IMG/VR virus record: IMGVR_UViG_3300046808_000775
Coordinates: 1 to 38,515 of that record
Length of the DNA stretch: 38,515 nucleotides
Reading direction: 5' to 3' (one strand)
Source of the DNA: a virus
The first letter of the stretch is position 1. Each line of letters starts with the position of its first letter. The notes under the pieces are model-generated. The model made no database searches, was not told where the DNA came from, and saw only the letters and a list, made by a program, of their open reading frames with translations. Of the stretch, positions 22,638 through 36,503 are shown in pieces. The position numbers and the translations under genes are program-made.

Positions 22638-24209
22638 TTAATCGATTCTAACGTTAGAGATAACGGCATCTGCTGATATAATAGTTGCAGCAACTGACGA
22701 CGCGTTTTTCAGCGCTGTCTTAGTAACTAGTAGCGGGTCAATGATACCAGCCTCAACCATATCAACGATTTCTCCAGTCACTACATCAACGCCTTGACCT
22801 GGCTTCATCTTTTTGTACTTCCTATCTTCTGGATTTAGGTCGGCATTTGTCATTATTTTGATCCAAGGTTCCATAATTGCGTTAAGTACTACATTGTAGC
22901 CATTGGAGTTTCCAGTTTTATTTAGTTTTGCCGATGCGTTAAGTAGTGCGATACCACCGCCTGGGATAATTCCTTCTTGAATAGCAGCCTTAACAGCGTA
23001 GATAGCATCTTCAACGCGATCTTTCTTTTCTTTCAACTCTATTTTAGAGTTAGCGCCAACTCTTACGATACCAACTTTGCCGCTAAGCATTGCTACGCGC
23101 TGTTCAATCTTCTTTTTGAAAAACGGATTTTGCTCGCTCTTAAGTTTTGCCTCGGCAATTGCTAGGCGCTCGCTAACCAACTCACTTGTCTCTTCAACGG
23201 TGATAACGGTGTTTTTTCCATCTGTAACGGCTTTTACAGCCTCTCCCAGCGCATCAACAGATATTGAATCAATATCGTCACCCAGCTCGTCAGAAATGAG
23301 TTTAGCACCGGTTATTGCAGCAAGGTCTTCAAGCGTATCACGCCGCGTTGGTCCAAAGCCAGGCTGATCCACAACATTGACCTTGATATTACCGCGCACC
23401 TTGTTCATCAACAGTGCACCGAGTGGCTGCTGTTCGATGTCTGCGATAATAAGCAACGATCTATTTTGCTTGATTACAAATTCTAGAACTCCTTGTATTC
23501 TTCTAATATTAGGAATTTTAGAGTCCATGATAAGTACATATGGGTTTTCCAGAACGGCCTTTTCTTTGTCCGCGTCTGTAATAAAGTGCTGCGACTTGAG
23601 TGGAGAGTCAAACTGTACGCCGTCAACTATTTCAACGTGCGTTAGGTCCGTTTCAGACTCTTCCATTAGGACAACGCCGCTGTTACCAACGGCTGTGAAT
23701 GCTTCTGAAATCACTTTTGCCAGCTCTGAATCATTATTCGTGGATATGTTGGCAACAGAGTAAAGCATGTCTCCAGATACCTCCACCTTGGCTGACTCCA
23801 GTAAGTCAATCACGTCGTTTGTCGCTTGTTCGATACCTTTCTTTAGTTCACGAAGGTTTTCGTTTTCTATAATCTCGTATGCGTGCGTAAGGATAGCATG
23901 TGAAAGAACCGTAGCGGTGGTTGTTCCGTCACCAGCTTCTTTAACAGTATTCTTTGCGGCTTCCTTGATAAGTGTTGCGCCGATGTTTTCGAGCGGGTCT
24001 TTAAGTACAACTGACTCAGCTACGGTAACGCCATCCTTAGTGATAATGGGTCTACCCATAGCGTCTTCATATATAACGCACTTTCCGCTTGCGCCCAACG
24101 TTGATGAAACTGCGGCTGCTAGTTTGTCAACGCCTTGTTTCATTCTGTTCCTAGCCCTAGCGCTGAATGTCAACTCTTTAATGAGTTCACTTGGATTATT
24201 GTATTCCAT
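22638..24209 (-). CDS. groEL: Phage-encoded chaperonin GroEL (523 aa)
   Basis: A full-length group I chaperonin. KDG at 58-60 holds the Asp equivalent to E. coli D52. GDGTTTATV at 93-101 binds nucleotide. RVEDAIYAVKAA at 398-409 contains D401, equivalent to the catalytic D398, and PGGGIALL at 416-423 closes the site. The apical domain (about 190-375) is complete, including GFGPTRRDTLEDLAAITGAK. It differs from host GroEL in its divergent N-terminus (MEYNNPSELIKELTFSARAR) and in lacking the GGM tail. All ATPase residues seen are intact, so it should be active. It probably folds the capsid or the large fibres. A putative promoter with an overlapping inverted repeat lies at 24220-24243. Confidence 0.93.
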   Translation of the reverse strand: MEYNNPSELIKELTFSARARNRMKQGVDKLAAAVSSTLGASGKCVIYEDAMGRPIITKDGVTVAESVVLKDPLENIGATLIKEAAKNTVKEAGDGTTTATVLSHAILTHAYEIIENENLRELKKGIEQATNDVIDLLESAKVEVSGDMLYSVANISTNNDSELAKVISEAFTAVGNSGVVLMEESETDLTHVEIVDGVQFDSPLKSQHFITDADKEKAVLENPYVLIMDSKIPNIRRIQGVLEFVIKQNRSLLIIADIEQQPLGALLMNKVRGNIKVNVVDQPGFGPTRRDTLEDLAAITGAKLISDELGDDIDSISVDALGEAVKAVTDGKNTVITVEETSELVSERLAIAEAKLKSEQNPFFKKKIEQRVAMLSGKVGIVRVGANSKIELKEKKDRVEDAIYAVKAAIQEGIIPGGGIALLNASAKLNKTGNSNGYNVVLNAIMEPWIKIMTNADLNPEDRKYKKMKPGQGVDVVTGEIVDMVEAGIIDPLLVTKTALKNASSVAATIISADAVISNVRID

Positions 24210-26492: not shown

Positions 26493-26605
26493 AGCGACAA
26501 CTTATTTATGATTTCGATGTTCTTCAACCCAACTGAAACCCTAGTCTTGTCAACCTTCTTGATTCCGTTAGCATTGAAAACCCTCTTTTTTACACTCTTT
26601 GCCAT
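26489..26605 (-). CDS. Tiny basic phage protein (38 aa)
   Basis: The ATG at 26605 overlaps the stop of the 81-aa gene (TAATG) and the frame ends TGA at 26489-26491. It encodes MAKSVKKRVFNANGIKKVDK and TRVSVGLKNIEIINKLSL. The protein is basic with a hydrophobic C-terminal half. The coupled start and 4-nt overlap with the next gene support it being translated. Function unknown. Confidence 0.6.
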   Translation of the reverse strand: MAKSVKKRVFNANGIKKVDKTRVSVGLKNIEIINKLSL

Positions 26606-26850
26606 TACTTCTTAGTATTATACACTTTTGTACCTCTTCCGTGGCCTCCACGGTTGGTCTTTACACTCACGAAGCGCTTAGAGTTGTGGTCATAGTCCTT
26701 TCCATCAACATCCTGACCATCCTTCTCAGCATCCCTGCGTCTCTTCTGGTTCTCAGCACGCATCCGAGTCCTACGCGGACTCTTTGCCTCTGCCAAATCC
26801 CTAGCTCTTTTGTCGCGCAATGCCTGCGCAGATAACTTCTGTTTTGCCAT
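26605..26850 (-). CDS. Small, highly basic protein, first gene of the leftward block (81 aa)
   Basis: Starts MAKQKLSAQALRDKRARDLA. The middle is very basic (SPRRTRMRAENQKRRRDAEK) and the end reads KDGQDVDGKDYDHNSKRF then VSVKTNRGGHGRGTKVYN. The DGKDYDH ... VSVKTNRG segment recalls small HNH-like phage proteins (D-x-D-H ... S-x-x-x-N-R-G), although one of the expected histidines is missing, so nuclease activity is doubtful. It probably binds nucleic acid. It is the first leftward gene after the divergent control region. A GATAATATG sequence lies directly at its start. Confidence 0.55.
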   Translation of the reverse strand: MAKQKLSAQALRDKRARDLAEAKSPRRTRMRAENQKRRRDAEKDGQDVDGKDYDHNSKRFVSVKTNRGGHGRGTKVYNTKK

Positions 26851-27094
26851 ATTATCACTATCACATTTAAACTCTTTCCGTTAATGCTAATTTAGGTGTT
26901 AGATGTATAGAAGTTGGGTGTTGGCCCCCTCCGGGGAGAGGAAGCCCCTGTTTAGGAAAGTCAATCTGTAAACCCGGGCCTGGGCCCTATTTACCGTTTA
27001 CCTATATGGTTTAGGCCTTTTACGCCACTGACTGAATGTTGATGCGACTGCTGGTGTATTGTTTCTGAATATGTTTAGGGTATTGTTTGTTTAT
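26851..27094. promoter_or_regulatory. Divergent control region between leftward late and rightward early genes
   Basis: A gene-free stretch, A/T-rich at both ends and GC-rich in the centre. It has two compact hairpins: CCCC-TCC-GGGG near 26925-26936, and a nested hairpin at 26968-26994 with outer stem GTAAA/TTTAC and inner stem GGGC/GCCC. T/G-rich rightward sequence with repeated TATTGTTT follows (about 27057-27092), which may hold a host-type promoter, but I see no full -33/-7 pair. It probably carries start signals for both directions. No ORF with coding character is seen. Confidence 0.55.
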
Positions 27095-27131
27095 GCTATA
27101 CACGAGATCCTTACGAGTTGCTGTGGATAAT
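27095..27131 (+). promoter_or_regulatory. Early promoter P1 (GCTATACAC-N22-GATAAT)
   Basis: GCTATACAC at 27095-27103 and GATAAT at 27126-27131, separated by exactly 22 nt, followed by ACCTATG. It is the first of four identical pairs, each just upstream of a small early ORF. The -10-like box resembles TATAAT, but the pair does not fit the Bacteroidota consensus. Confidence 0.75.
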
Positions 27132-27159
27132 ACCTATGTCTAACTTAAATCCTCTAACC

Positions 27160-27414
27160 ATGTCTAAGACAGCCACCCCTACCCCAGCACCAGTAGCCAA
27201 GAAGCGTTTCGTTATCGCGAAGAGCATGCTAGGTAAAGGAATCATTATCTCATTCACTAACCACAAAGGCGAAGAGTGTACGTACGATCACGATAAGGTG
27301 TATGAGGCAAACAAGTCTCGCTTTGAAGTGATGCCATGCTTCGCTAAGTACGGTAACTACACCAACAGTAACAACTTGCCTAAGTTCGTAAGAGATATGG
27401 CGAGTATGCTGTAA
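27160..27414 (+). CDS. Early cassette protein 1, paralogue family of three (84 aa)
   Basis: I use the ATG at 27160 (MSKTATPTPAPVAKKRFVIA). The frame is open to 27118, but that would start inside the promoter. After a Pro/Thr/Ala-rich leader of ~13 residues it matches the next two proteins: KRFVIAKSMLGKGIIISFTN, a DHDKVYE strand, and the near-invariant MPCFAKYGNYTNSNNLPKFV. Residues YDHDKVYE and CF.KYGNYTNSNNLPKF are shared by all three. No known family is recognised. A size of ~70-85 aa, a private promoter and a private terminator suggest an abundant early protein, such as a host-takeover factor. It is the most divergent of the three copies. Confidence 0.85.
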   Translation: MSKTATPTPAPVAKKRFVIAKSMLGKGIIISFTNHKGEECTYDHDKVYEANKSRFEVMPCFAKYGNYTNSNNLPKFVRDMASML

Positions 27415-27417
27415 GAC

Positions 27418-27442
27418 GAGGGACTTCGGTCCCTCTTTTTTT
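27418..27442 (+). terminator. Rho-independent terminator of cassette 1
   Basis: GAGGGAC-TTCG-GTCCCTC followed by seven T. A perfect 7-bp stem with a UUCG tetraloop 3 nt after the stop codon: very strong. Confidence 0.95.
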
Positions 27443-27453
27443 CTTTTATGTAT

Positions 27454-27490
27454 GCTATACACAAGATTCTAACGAGCTCCTATGGATAAT
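27454..27490 (+). promoter_or_regulatory. Early promoter P2 (GCTATACAC-N22-GATAAT)
   Basis: GCTATACAC at 27454-27462, 22 nt, GATAAT at 27485-27490, then CCCTATG. It begins 12 nt after the T-run of terminator 1. Confidence 0.78.
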
Positions 27491-27494
27491 CCCT

Positions 27495-27516
27495 ATGTAA
27501 GCACTGAAGCTTACGT
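27495..27516 (+). promoter_or_regulatory. Leader hairpin of cassette 2
   Basis: ATGTAAGC pairs with GCTTACGT around a 6-nt loop (one T-G pair), just after the -10-like box and before the ORF. Hairpins of different sequence occupy the same place in cassettes 3 and 4. Confidence 0.5.
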
Positions 27517-27531
27517 CTAACACCACTTATT

Positions 27532-27756
27532 ATGCCACAAGTAACCAAGAACCGTTTCGTGATCGCCAAGAATATGATTGGTAAGGAACTGACTATTGTA
27601 TTCAAGAATGCCAAAGGTGAGGAAGTAACCTACGAGCACGACAAGGTATACGAGATGTTCAAGAGTAAGTTCGATGATATGCCTTGCTTCAATAAGTATG
27701 GAAACTATACTAATAGTAATAACTTACCAAAGTTTATCAGAGAGGCTTTGAAGTGA
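27532..27756 (+). CDS. Early cassette protein 2, paralogue family of three (74 aa)
   Basis: Starts MPQVTKNRFVIAKNMIGKEL. It shares with cassette 3 most positions across its length, including the VTKNRFVIAKNM start, KGEEVTYEHDKVYE, and MPCFNKYGNYTNSNNLPKFI then REALK. It lacks the Pro/Thr leader of copy 1. The protein is basic and soluble with one invariant Cys. Codon choices differ from copy 3 while residues are kept, which points to selection on the protein. Function unknown. Confidence 0.87.
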   Translation: MPQVTKNRFVIAKNMIGKELTIVFKNAKGEEVTYEHDKVYEMFKSKFDDMPCFNKYGNYTNSNNLPKFIREALK

Positions 27757-27758
27757 CT

Positions 27759-27786
27759 AAGGGGAGCGAAAGCTCCTCTTTTTTTC
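27759..27786 (+). terminator. Rho-independent terminator of cassette 2
   Basis: AAGGGGAGC-GAAA-GCTCCTCTT with a T-run: a 9-bp stem (one G-T pair) and a GNRA tetraloop directly after the stop codon. Confidence 0.93.
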
Positions 27787-27796
27787 TTTTAAATAT

Positions 27797-27833
27797 GCTA
27801 TACACAATCCTAAAACAGTCTCTATTGGATAAT
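27797..27833 (+). promoter_or_regulatory. Early promoter P3 (GCTATACAC-N22-GATAAT)
   Basis: GCTATACAC at 27797-27805, 22 nt, GATAAT at 27828-27833, followed by AACGATG. Spacing is identical to P1 and P2. Confidence 0.78.
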
Positions 27834-27838
27834 AACGA

Positions 27839-27854
27839 TGAGCATCGACGCTCA
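27839..27854 (+). promoter_or_regulatory. Leader hairpin of cassette 3
   Basis: TGAGC pairs with GCTCA around a 6-nt loop, in the same position relative to the -10-like box as in cassette 2 but with different sequence. Confidence 0.45.
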
Positions 27855-27872
27855 GTCTAAAACCTCATTCCT

Positions 27873-28106
27873 ATGTCTACTTCAACCTCGGTCACCAAGA
27901 ATCGCTTTGTAATTGCCAAGAATATGCTCGGCAAAGGTTTAACTATCACTTTTAAGAATACTAAAGGTGAAGAAATGACCTACGACCACGATAAAGTATT
28001 CGAGCTGTTTAAAGCTAAGTTTGAAGCAATGCCTTGCTTTAATAAATACGGGAATTACACTAATAGTAACAACCTACCTAAGTTCGTGCGAGAAGCATTG
28101 AAGTAA
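27873..28106 (+). CDS. Early cassette protein 3, paralogue family of three (77 aa)
   Basis: Starts MSTSTSVTKNRFVIAKNMLG and follows cassette protein 2 closely: KGLTITFKNTKGEEMTYDHD, KVFELFKAKFEAMPCFNKYG, then NYTNSNNLPKFVREALK. The N-terminal Ser/Thr leader is 3 residues longer. The TITFKNxKGEExTYDHDKV strand pattern suggests a small beta-sheet domain followed by two helices. Function unknown. The unit ends with a strong terminator, so it is expressed alone. Confidence 0.87.
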   Translation: MSTSTSVTKNRFVIAKNMLGKGLTITFKNTKGEEMTYDHDKVFELFKAKFEAMPCFNKYGNYTNSNNLPKFVREALK

Positions 28107-28111
28107 GGATT

Positions 28112-28136
28112 AAGGGCACCTTCGGGTGCCTTTTTT
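28112..28136 (+). terminator. Rho-independent terminator of cassette 3
   Basis: AAGGGCACC-TTCG-GGTGCCTTT followed by T-rich sequence: a compact stem with a UUCG loop 5 nt after the stop codon. Confidence 0.93.
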
Positions 28137-28149
28137 CTTTTTATTTTTT

Positions 28150-28186
28150 GCTATACACAATCCTAATACACACCGCGTCTGATAAT
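28150..28186 (+). promoter_or_regulatory. Early promoter P4 (GCTATACAC-N22-GATAAT)
   Basis: GCTATACAC at 28150-28158, 22 nt, GATAAT at 28181-28186. The fourth pair with identical spacing; it drives an unrelated 53-aa ORF. Confidence 0.78.
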
Positions 28187-28191
28187 ACAAA

Positions 28192-28206
28192 TGATCAGTA
28201 CGATCA
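28192..28206 (+). promoter_or_regulatory. Leader hairpin of cassette 4
   Basis: TGATC pairs with GATCA around AGTAC, at the same relative position as the leader hairpins of cassettes 2 and 3. Confidence 0.4.
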
Positions 28207-28229
28207 CCCTAAACCTTAAATCCTCAAGC

Positions 28230-28391
28230 ATGTTCCTAAAATTCTTTTATTCAGGCGACAGTCGCCGTATCAAGTTACAATACAAAGGAAAAACTTACGA
28301 AGGTTACAGGCTCAACGAGCTACCTAAAACCTTCAAAACAAGTAATAGCGACTTCTTCACCTGCCAAGGTTTAACCTTCGTGGTTGAGTAA
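28230..28391 (+). CDS. Early cassette protein 4, unrelated small protein (53 aa)
   Basis: I use the ATG at 28230 (MFLKFFYSGDSRRIKLQYKG). A frame open from 28191 would start only 4 nt after the -10-like box. The protein is small, basic and beta-rich, ending NSDFFTCQGLTFVVE. It does not share the MPCF..YGNYTN motif of the first three cassettes, so the promoter module has been joined to a different gene. No terminator of the simple type follows; the structured repeat array at 28395 begins 4 nt after the stop. Confidence 0.7.
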   Translation: MFLKFFYSGDSRRIKLQYKGKTYEGYRLNELPKTFKTSNSDFFTCQGLTFVVE

Positions 28392-28394
28392 ACT

Positions 28395-28579
28395 AAAAGT
28401 GTGACAATAGCCTGTTACTATCTATTACTTATAAGGCTAATGTCACAGTTTTTTTGAGGTTCACCTGGTGACATTACCAGTAACCTTAAACTTTATCAAA
28501 AGTGTGACAATAGCCCGTTACTATATACTACTTATAAGGCAAATGTCACAGTTTTTTCTGCTTAGTTTGGTGACATTTC
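28395..28579 (+). repeat. Tandem ~103-bp repeat with six GTGACAWT motifs and two hairpins
   Basis: Two copies (28395-28455 and 28498-28557, period 103) of a ~60-nt block. Each contains a near-perfect inverted repeat: TGTGACAATAGCC pairs with GGCTAATGTCACA in copy 1 around ~22 nt, followed by six or seven T. A third GTGACATT follows each block (28468 and 28570). This gives six motif copies in the order forward, reverse, forward, twice: 28401, 28437(rev), 28468, 28504, 28540(rev), 28570. No ORF fits. It could be terminators, protein-binding iterons or small RNAs. Confidence 0.85.
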
Positions 28580-28655: not shown

Positions 28656-28862
28656 ATGGAAGTTATCACTTCACTCGTTCGGTTTATTGGTGTACTTATT
28701 GTGTCATCGGTATTGTTTTGGTTTGTTATTTACTTTTTCTATGTATTGTTTACTGGGTCAATGGATTACTATGCTATTGATGAAAACGTGCGGGTTGTGC
28801 TTGGCCTGGTTATCCTTGCCGCATCGTTTAGCACAGCTGTAGTTGGATCTAACGAGCTTTAA
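28656..28862 (+). CDS. Small membrane protein with two helices (68 aa)
   Basis: Starts at ATG 28656 (MEVITSLVRFIGVLIVSSVL). The first hydrophobic stretch runs ~8-33 (FIGVLIVSSVLFWFVIYFFY) and the second ~50-65 (VVLGLVILAASFSTAVVG), with a short acidic loop between (SMDYYAIDENVR). It is likely an inner-membrane protein. The ~75-nt upstream sequence is T-rich without a clear promoter of the P1-P4 type. Function unknown; small early membrane proteins often act in superinfection exclusion or host takeover, but nothing here shows that. Confidence 0.65.
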   Translation: MEVITSLVRFIGVLIVSSVLFWFVIYFFYVLFTGSMDYYAIDENVRVVLGLVILAASFSTAVVGSNEL

Positions 28863-32023: not shown

Positions 32024-32238
32024 TGCAAGAAGAACTTTTAACTATTGATGTAGACTACGTTGGCCAAGACCGCGAGTTTATTTCACTGTGTGCCAAGTTT
32101 AATATCGCCTGCAAAACCAACTACGGTGTAGCCTTATTGACGGGTACAAAGCAACAGTTGTTTGATTTCTTGTCATCGCCATATTATGAAATGGATAGGA
32201 TGACTATCCGAGAATTTTATCCAGAACTTTTAGATTAA
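32023..32238 (+). CDS. Hypothetical early protein (71 aa)
   Basis: Starts MQEELLTIDVDYVGQDREFI. It is a compact alpha/beta protein with CAKFNIACKTNYGVALLTGT in the centre and FDFLSSPYYEMDRMTIREFY near the end. The TAATG overlap at 32023 couples it to the CCxGC gene, and its stop overlaps the start of the sigma factor gene by one base, so it belongs to the sigma operon. Function unknown. Confidence 0.65.
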   Translation: MQEELLTIDVDYVGQDREFISLCAKFNIACKTNYGVALLTGTKQQLFDFLSSPYYEMDRMTIREFYPELLD

Positions 32239-33101
32239 TGCGCCAACTTAAGATCGCCAATCAGATTACTAAACGCGAAAGCAAATCAATAGAGAAATAC
32301 TTTGTAGAGCTTTCAAAAGAAAAACTATTAACGCCAGAAGAAGAATTTGAATTAACTAAAATCATTTACGAAACAGGGGATCCAGTTGCAAAAGAAAGAC
32401 TAACGCGCGCAAACTTAAGGTTTGTTGTATCTGTCGCCAAGCAGTATCAAGTATCTGGTATGAAGCTTGAAGACCTAATATCAGAAGGCAACATCGGCCT
32501 TATTAAGGCTGTTGACAGGTTCGATCCAACAAGAGGTTTTAAGTTCATATCGTTCGCCGTGTGGTGGATCAGGCAGAGTATACTACACTCTATTGATACT
32601 AAGTCAAAGCAGATATACACGCCAGGCAATAGAAACGCCAACATGAATAGGATACGCAAGGCATCGTCTGAGCTCGAGCAGAAACTGTTTAGAGAACCAG
32701 AACCTTTTGAGATTGCAGAACATCTTGGCGTTGAAGAGAGTTTTGTTTTAGACATGTTCAACCACACCGCAGAGATGACGTCTAGCGACGCTACGCTATC
32801 CGGAGATGAATCATCAACAACAGTGTCTGATATTCTAACTAACACGACGTATGCGCAGCCAGACGAAGACATAACACAAGAGTCCACAGTGAATTTGTTT
32901 TGGAAAATGGCAGAGAAGATTTTAAATCCAATGCACTTCAAGGTTGTGTCAATGTATTTAGGCGCGTTTGAACCTGCCAAGACTGTTAAGCAAATAGCTA
33001 TGGAATTAGATATTCCAGATGAAAAAGCGCGTCAACTAAAAGACAGCGGATTAAATAGATTAAAAAGAAATAAAAAATGCTCAAGTATCTTACTGTCGTA
33101 A
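32238..33101 (+). CDS. RpoD-like RNA polymerase sigma factor, phage-encoded (287 aa)
   Basis: The N-terminus MRQLKIANQITKRESKSIEK matches the conserved start of Bacteroidota RpoD, so the gene was most likely taken from such a host. Region 2 is intact: ANLRFVVSVAKQYQVSGMKL (58-77), DLISEGNIGLIKAVDRFDPT (79-98) and FKFISFAVWWIRQSI (101-115). The -10 strand-opening WW and Q are kept. The linker after region 2.4 is divergent (QIYTPGNRNANMNRIRKA). The region 4.2 helix is altered: IPDEKARQLK replaces the usual TRERVRQIK, losing an Arg used to read the -35 box. It would redirect host RNA polymerase to phage promoters, perhaps the GATAAT family in this window. Confidence 0.9.
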   Translation: MRQLKIANQITKRESKSIEKYFVELSKEKLLTPEEEFELTKIIYETGDPVAKERLTRANLRFVVSVAKQYQVSGMKLEDLISEGNIGLIKAVDRFDPTRGFKFISFAVWWIRQSILHSIDTKSKQIYTPGNRNANMNRIRKASSELEQKLFREPEPFEIAEHLGVEESFVLDMFNHTAEMTSSDATLSGDESSTTVSDILTNTTYAQPDEDITQESTVNLFWKMAEKILNPMHFKVVSMYLGAFEPAKTVKQIAMELDIPDEKARQLKDSGLNRLKRNKKCSSILLS

Positions 33102-34942: not shown

Positions 34943-35022
34943 ACGCTCGTATCCCCTCAAGCTTATACCTTGTAGAAAGGGTAACTGGTCACACGTGGGT
35001 TCGAGTCCCACCGAGCGTACCA
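34943..35022 (+). tRNA. Atypical tRNA-like element with encoded CCA, no canonical D-arm
   Basis: ACGCTCG (34943-34949) pairs perfectly with CGAGCGT (35012-35018), followed by A and an encoded CCA (35020-35022). The T-arm GTGGG-TTCGAGT-CCCAC is perfect. The 45-nt stretch between (34950-34994) has no GG in a D-loop and no normal D-stem. The best central hairpin is TACC ... GGTA around TTGTAGAAAG, so the anticodon could be GTA (Tyr), but this is uncertain. It may be a divergent tRNA, a damaged one, or a tRNA mimic. Confidence 0.6.
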
Positions 35023-35026
35023 TTAT

Positions 35027-35100
35027 GCCCCTGTAGCTCAACTGGATAGAGCAACGCACTTCTAATGCGTAGGTTACAGGTTCGATTCCTGTCGGGGGTA
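35027..35100 (+). tRNA. tRNA-Arg (TCT anticodon)
   Basis: All arms are canonical: acceptor GCCCCTG with CGGGGGT (two G-T pairs), D-arm GCTC..GAGC with GG in the loop, anticodon arm ACGCA-CTTCTAA-TGCGT with anticodon TCT, variable AGGTT and T-arm ACAGG-TTCGATT-CCTGT. Discriminator A at 35100; CCA is not encoded. It decodes AGA, a codon common in A/T-rich phage genes such as these. Confidence 0.93.
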
Positions 35101-35115
35101 CTAAGTAAAAACAAA

Positions 35116-36373: not shown

Positions 36374-36503
36374 AGTCAGGTGGCGAGATGGTAGACGCTT
36401 GTCATACTGGATTGGGTAGTTAGGACAGACACCCGACTGGAAGGTATGGCAGATTGCACAACAGTCCAAAATGCAAATACAGGTTCGAATCCTGTCCTGG
36501 CTA
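36374..36503 (+). tRNA. Oversized tRNA-like element (130 nt), Leu-type D-arm
   Basis: Acceptor AGTCAGG (36374-36380) pairs with CCTGGCT (36496-36502, one T-G). The D-arm GCGAGATGGTAGACGC (36383-36398) is typical of tRNA-Leu, and the T-arm ACAGG-TTCGAAT-CCTGT is perfect. In place of a 17-nt anticodon arm there is a long branched arm: GTCATACT pairs with GGTATGGC (8 bp), enclosing TTGGGT/ACCCGA. A TTGCA/TGCAA variable-arm-like hairpin follows. No anticodon can be assigned. It may contain an insertion or be a tRNA mimic. The discriminator A is at 36503 and no CCA is encoded. Confidence 0.6.

Follow-up and report, generated by a model that had tools for sequence, protein, structure and literature searches.

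What is the function of a set of short, regularly spaced repeats which, viewed in a single phage genome, looks like a pair of terminators or a group of iterons? The question is posed by the IMG/VR virus record IMGVR_UViG_3300046808_000775 (38.5 kb), which was analyzed over its complete length of 38,515 nt and is referred to here as the window. Genes from position 1 to about 26850 are transcribed leftward and include a structural block, TerL, portal and GroEL, and those from about 27160 onward point rightward. The first-pass annotation had noted six copies of GTGACAWT in a gene-free stretch of the rightward part and had offered, besides terminators, three readings, i.e. iterons for replication initiation, an operator cluster or two tandem small RNAs. 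In our view the array is probably a promoter-operator pair for a conserved phage regulator acting at the early/late switch. The argument draws on the following features:

26605 to 26850, minus strand: gene at the head of the leftward late block, encoding an 81-aa protein of the KQKLSxxAxxxKxxRD family; the same family occurs downstream of T1 sites (see below)
27873 to 28106, plus strand: 77-aa gene whose family members adjoin elements in relatives; two paralogs, at about 27160-27414 and 27532-27756
28191 to 28391, plus strand: 66-aa gene of unassigned function, stop codon 9 nt from element 1
28395 to 28454, no strand assigned: extended copy 1 with flanks AAAAGT...ACAGTTTTTT; the symmetric A/T flanks belong to the conserved site
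28401 to 28446, minus strand: element 1, palindrome GTGACATTAGCCTTATAAGTAATAGATAGTAACAGGCTATTGTCAC, putative promoter-operator pointing left; 58.4 bits versus 32.8 on the plus strand; 46/46 identical in relative G001
28468 to 28475, plus strand: lone GTGACATT core at a distance of 21 bp from element 1, on the upstream side as that element points; in the window and G001
28498 to 28557, no strand assigned: extended copy 2, 93% identical to extended copy 1
28504 to 28549, minus strand: element 2, GTGACATTTGCCTTATAAGTAGTATATAGTAACGGGCTATTGTCAC, putative promoter-operator pointing left, 103 bp from element 1; 51.9 bits; 46/46 identical in G001
28570 to 28577, plus strand: lone GTGACATT core at a distance of 20 bp from element 2, on its upstream side; in the window and G001
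28656 to 28862, plus strand: 68-aa putative membrane protein, to the right of the array

The stretch between the gene ending at 28391 and that starting at 28656 is indeed free of genes, and all six GTGACAWT copies were found there (plus strand at 28401, 28468, 28504 and 28570, minus strand at 28439 and 28542) in the order forward-reverse-forward, twice, as described. The period of 103 nt holds from start to start for the first two members of the unit and is 102 nt for the third. The hairpins exist as imperfect stems in which the outer arms pair over 18-19 nt (83-89% complementary) around loops of 20-22 nt, followed on the plus strand by T7 (copy 1) and T6 (copy 2). Nor are the six copies equal: four make up the outer halves of two palindromes, and the two "third" copies are lone cores that score below a full half-site. 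The array is thus made up of two tandem imperfect palindromes plus two lone cores. The number of bare motifs is only mildly unusual (seven in the window versus 3.1 expected, with seven or more in 2/100 shuffles) and constitutes weak evidence. The composite element, in contrast, is far beyond chance: when trained on 218 sites that come from other phages, with the window and G001 left out, a matrix finds only the two copies (58.4 and 51.9 bits, minus strand) and, apart from their own reverse readings, nothing of at least 9 bits elsewhere in the window, and ten block-shuffled windows yielded no match at 5 bits. A tandem-repeat finder did not report the elements, and no Rfam family matched at the array.

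Loss of the array in close relatives had been named as an observation that would speak against a function. In G001, a 62.5-kb relative of about 94% identity, both elements are retained letter for letter within surrounding segments that are 88-99% identical, and a third copy, pointing in the opposite direction, is located about 10 kb away. A strict pattern built from the three copies matched nine phage contigs besides G001. The search for the array in related phages was extended with the looser pattern GTGACAWWAGN{21,32}CWWWTGTCAC, which was scanned in IMG/VR viral contigs and matched at least 120 loci versus 49 for a control pattern in which one arm was displaced by a single base; the site counts are minimum values, and phages related to each other do not count as independent. 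Element length ranges from 43 to 49 bp, with a sharp peak at 44-46 bp among the 135 distinct sites first collected, and the consensus reads AAaAgT-GTGACATTAGssYnTTA-N~10-AGTAAsaGGCTATTGTCAC-ACTTTT, which includes the flanks as AAaAgT|GTGACA..TGTCAC|ACTTTT. Two to three copies are present in each genome of 60-68 kb. The lone cores are not a general feature and were rejected as such, since no TGTCAC occurs in the 70 bp preceding any of 238 other sites; they were seen in the window lineage only. Both units retain TGGTGACATTwCC at the core although they differ in the sequence surrounding it. The lone cores lie about 60 bp upstream of the predicted transcription starts and could serve this lineage as accessory half-sites.

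The sites fall into two classes. Some 27 of those first collected, termed REG, overlap or adjoin the start codon of a single family of ~207-aa proteins (mean column identity 59%), the ATG usually being placed inside ..GGCTAATGTCAC within the right arm of the element. Circularity was avoided by searching for this family by protein similarity alone, which gave 494 relatives in viral contigs, of which the best 80 were kept, and by training the test matrix solely on non-regulator sites (cut-off 20 bits). Among these best 80 of 494, an element is found at the start codon of 77 regulator genes and at none of 261 control starts in the same loci (0/77, 0/76 and 0/74 for the next three genes, 0/34 for the 77-aa family); the three exceptions are near-identical loci. 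The remaining copies, class T1, are oriented opposite to the regulator in 43/48 cases in the regulator-anchored loci, mostly at a distance of 6-10 kb. T1 sites are situated 36-217 nt before leftward late genes for small basic KQKLS proteins, the family to which the 81-aa protein belongs and before which an element is often found, or for tail-fibre-like MAIIYSYP proteins, and also or alternatively just beyond the 3' end of 77-aa family genes, whose stop codon is often 5-20 nt from the element. Within the same best 80 of 494 loci, the 81-aa family occurs leftward in 23 and the 77-aa family in 35. Six near-complete genomes carry two to three elements each, one at the regulator and the remaining one or two close to where the strand switches ahead of the late block. 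By position and orientation the pair in the window is assigned to class T1, at the divergent switch before the leftward late operon. The matrix did not find a late-proximal element upstream of 26850, not even a degenerate copy; the window lacks the late-proximal copy and has two of the distal one, and a further relative (G046) also has the distal copy only.

The ~207-aa protein is the candidate reader of these sites. Pfam HTH_11 was found at the C-terminus of 23/27 members, with the match of the first member below the curated cut-off, and the AF2 model has a pLDDT of 89.6. Neither the regulator nor its N-terminal domain alone gave a confident fold match in the PDB; a second look at residues 153-213 returned MntR, TetR and sigma domains (Z about 4-5.5), and the viral protein A0A516MIB4 matches the whole regulator model (E 1e-10). 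The next gene in the regulator operon encodes a sigma-70 r2/r4 protein, and genes for the sigma-70 factor, an Erf-like annealing protein and an exonuclease follow the regulator in 77, 76 and 74 of the best 80 of 494 loci, respectively; in G001 the operon continues with primase-helicase, thymidylate synthase, MazG and ribonucleotide reductase. Among element-bearing contigs of at least 55 kb, 21/22 contain the regulator versus 0/18 contigs with the shifted control pattern, a co-occurrence that partly reflects shared ancestry. The variable half-site (GACA/GACG) is concordant between REG and T1 sites of the same genome (0.90 versus 0.53 permuted, 0/5000), as expected if one protein reads both classes, although shared ancestry contributes here as well. 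The 207-aa protein is the most likely binder of the element. The window ends before the regulator's position, and the gene is present in G001, where it encodes 217 aa (L002:16691-17344), so that the phage from which the window derives would encode it too.

How might such a switch operate? Two inverted half-sites (AAAAgTGTGACAWTAGsCtnTTA) would face each other around a leftward sigma-70-like promoter core, with GTGACA as -35, a spacer of 16-18 bp and [T/A]AtAGT as -10. The element reads as a sigma-70-like promoter because the distance from GTGACA to [T/A]AtAGT is mostly 16-18 bp, with a peak at 17 in T1 sites; an A at the second position of the -10 (-11), although usually vital, is present in only 57% of T1 sites. 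If a promoter is embedded in this way, the left half-site would correspond to the -35 and the right half-site to the start region. The likely reader would be the ~207-aa HTH protein; its gene lies on the opposite strand at a distance of about 10 kb and starts inside another copy of the element. By binding at its own start site it would autoregulate the regulator-sigma-Erf-exonuclease-primase operon, and by binding the leftward copies before the late operon it would coordinate the switch from early/replication to late transcription. The predicted operator thus lies over the regulator's own start and is repeated at the late block, as in an autoregulated regulator. Since the half-sites extend over the -35 as well as the predicted transcription start, repression by polymerase occlusion is slightly favored over activation; activation, or an action shared with the phage sigma factor, is the less favored mode. 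Leftward transcription from the array in the window would have to pass four small genes in antisense, over about 1.5 kb, to reach the first late gene.

A related possibility, which we regard as doubtful though worth keeping in mind, is that of a composite phage promoter, in which the ~207-aa protein grips the -35 and +1 sides together with the neighboring sigma factor and drives a leaderless regulator/replication operon as well as the whole late operon. The asymmetry between GTGACAT and GTGACAA would then aid direction; most elements keep one half of either kind. If true, this would be a new kind of promoter in a large phage group without named members.

It is less likely that the element is no more than a promoter recognized by a sigma factor of the phage and that the 207-aa protein does not bind it at all. 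The sigma-like spacing would agree with this, as would the sigma-70 r2/r4 gene placed next in the regulator operon and another sigma factor gene in the window. However, both arms are equally conserved and the downstream one mirrors the upstream one including the A/T flanks, neither of which a sigma promoter needs, and among the gene starts tested the overlap with a start codon is specific to the HTH gene.

Iterons, i.e. a replication origin with sites for an autoregulated, RepE-like initiator represented by the 207-aa protein, are an improbable reading. The GTGACA core is similar to that of the F iteron. An autoregulatory inverted repeat at an initiator-like gene together with distant copies resembles the logic of the F plasmid (PMC13028717), and the operon encodes primase-helicase, Erf and exonuclease. 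The cumulative GC skew has its minimum near the array, but this minimum coincides with, and is confounded by, the switch in gene strand. Moreover, the array consists of two inverted elements and not of direct repeats, there are only two to three copies per genome, the copies are oriented as promoters 36-217 nt before late genes, and the 27 members searched gave no Rep-family Pfam match (Rep_3 at E<=0.05).

Equally improbable is that the array serves as two tandem rho-independent terminators that end transcription of the 66-aa gene on the plus strand. In the window alone this looks attractive: elements 1 and 2 fold stably (-20.7 kcal/mol, z -5.3, and -13.8 kcal/mol, z -2.3) and are followed by T runs, and the 66-aa gene is without another terminator while its neighbors have canonical ones. 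The loops of 20-22 nt and the interrupted stems speak against it, as does the terminator scan, which did not list the array; by its make-up it does not qualify as an intrinsic terminator. The relatives retain the mismatch and show no covarying base pairs, T6 in the direction seen in the window follows only 17/245 sites, and the regulator copies overlap a start codon without a T run in the direction of the gene. Across 72 REG and 152 T1 sites, Watson-Crick pairing between the arms equals the expectation for independent columns, and at position 7 pairing is even avoided in T1 sites (0.16 versus 0.40 expected); it follows that neither a terminator nor a small RNA is supported as the conserved function. 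To judge by the aligned sites, the element is conserved as double-stranded DNA. The T-tracts of the window resemble an extended form of the conserved A/T flank, and termination could be a secondary function there. Two tandem structured small RNAs or targets of an RNA-binding protein are scarcely credible, since a stable single-strand fold on both strands is set against this very lack of arm pairing and of covariation and against the absence of an Rfam match, so that the array does not qualify as a structured RNA family. Tyrosine or serine recombinase core sites, suggested by the inverted half-sites, were considered and set aside as unlikely in view of a length that varies between 43 and 49 bp and of copies at gene starts.

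Among the readings offered at the outset, iterons and small RNAs hence find no support, whereas an operator cluster agrees with conservation at the DNA level, the start codon of the HTH gene and the late operon. The predicted promoter-operator pair invites comparison with established systems. Lambda CI-type immunity repressors have operators over their own promoter, and one protein controls both its own gene and the opposing operon. Operators shared by the regulator gene and an opposing operon are likewise predicted here, but integrase or lysogeny genes were not identified among the genes examined, and the operators are asymmetric sites of 45 bp instead of clustered ones of 17 bp. Late operons are also under phage-encoded control in the case of P2 Ogr and the T4 late transcription factors; there, however, sites and proteins differ, and the element described here additionally covers the start codon of its own regulator. 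Protein p4 of phi29, which has a p4-specific fold and sites with the consensus CTTTTT-15-AAAATG (PMC3100819), is an early phage protein, too, and acts at imperfect, asymmetric inverted repeats with flanking A-tracts, several of which are clustered at the early/late switch and some of which overlap -35 elements (PMC3100819). In contrast, our element has the core GTGACA...TGTCAC, is 45 bp long and centered on a putative promoter, and the candidate 207-aa HTH protein starts inside its own site. RepE of the F plasmid likewise has an inverted repeat at the start of its gene and also reads copies at a distance, but its origin sites are direct iterons (PMC13028717), and the window has neither an iteron array nor a Rep-family match. 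The element would thus work most like phi29 p4 and RepE-style autoregulation and is to be filed under neither, as the consensus differs and a family match is absent.

A description of the element was not found in the literature searched, where both the site and the protein family appear undescribed, while the kind of system is familiar. Searches with the element DNA in named phages gave short, chance-level matches only, and tblastn found none of the regulator family in 50,697 named phage records. With 494 regulator relatives in IMG/VR, the site offers a handle on gene timing in a large environmental phage group, and one site class, one candidate protein and two to three sites per genome make it easy to test. 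Comparison of relatives has here turned a repeat that resembles terminators or iterons in one genome into the predicted binding site of a regulator. In three short contigs (L278, L308 and L336), possibly from another phage group, an element is located 31 nt before a gene for a protein of 251-293 aa, and the regulator was not found there.

Several further observations concern the surroundings of the elements. Three tandem paralogs of about 75 aa occupy 27096-28190 (at about 27160, 27532 and 27873) and have canonical terminators at 27418, 27759 and 28112; each is preceded by a promoter-like leader GCTATACACRA...GGATAAT.., a fourth copy of which is found before the 66-aa gene. The divergent region contains a GC-rich GGGCCC-type motif at 26965-27000 (AAACCCGGGCCTGGGCCC), and GGGGGCCC-like motifs also precede elements by about 100 nt in four other loci (L029, L031, L033 and L036). 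Two different sigma-70-type factors are present in the lineage, one in the window (32238-33101) and one directly after the regulator in the relative G001 (L002:17313-18062). The regions 34943-35101 and 36374-36503 contain tRNA-Arg(tct) and, close by, two weak tRNA-like matches in Rfam, which ARAGORN did not call. The GroEL of the leftward block is phage-encoded (22638-24209, phrog_5725). TerL is related to that of phages of Flavobacterium, Cellulophaga, Tenacibaculum and Maribacter at no more than 46% identity, with the exception of a spring-water podovirus genome at 63%.
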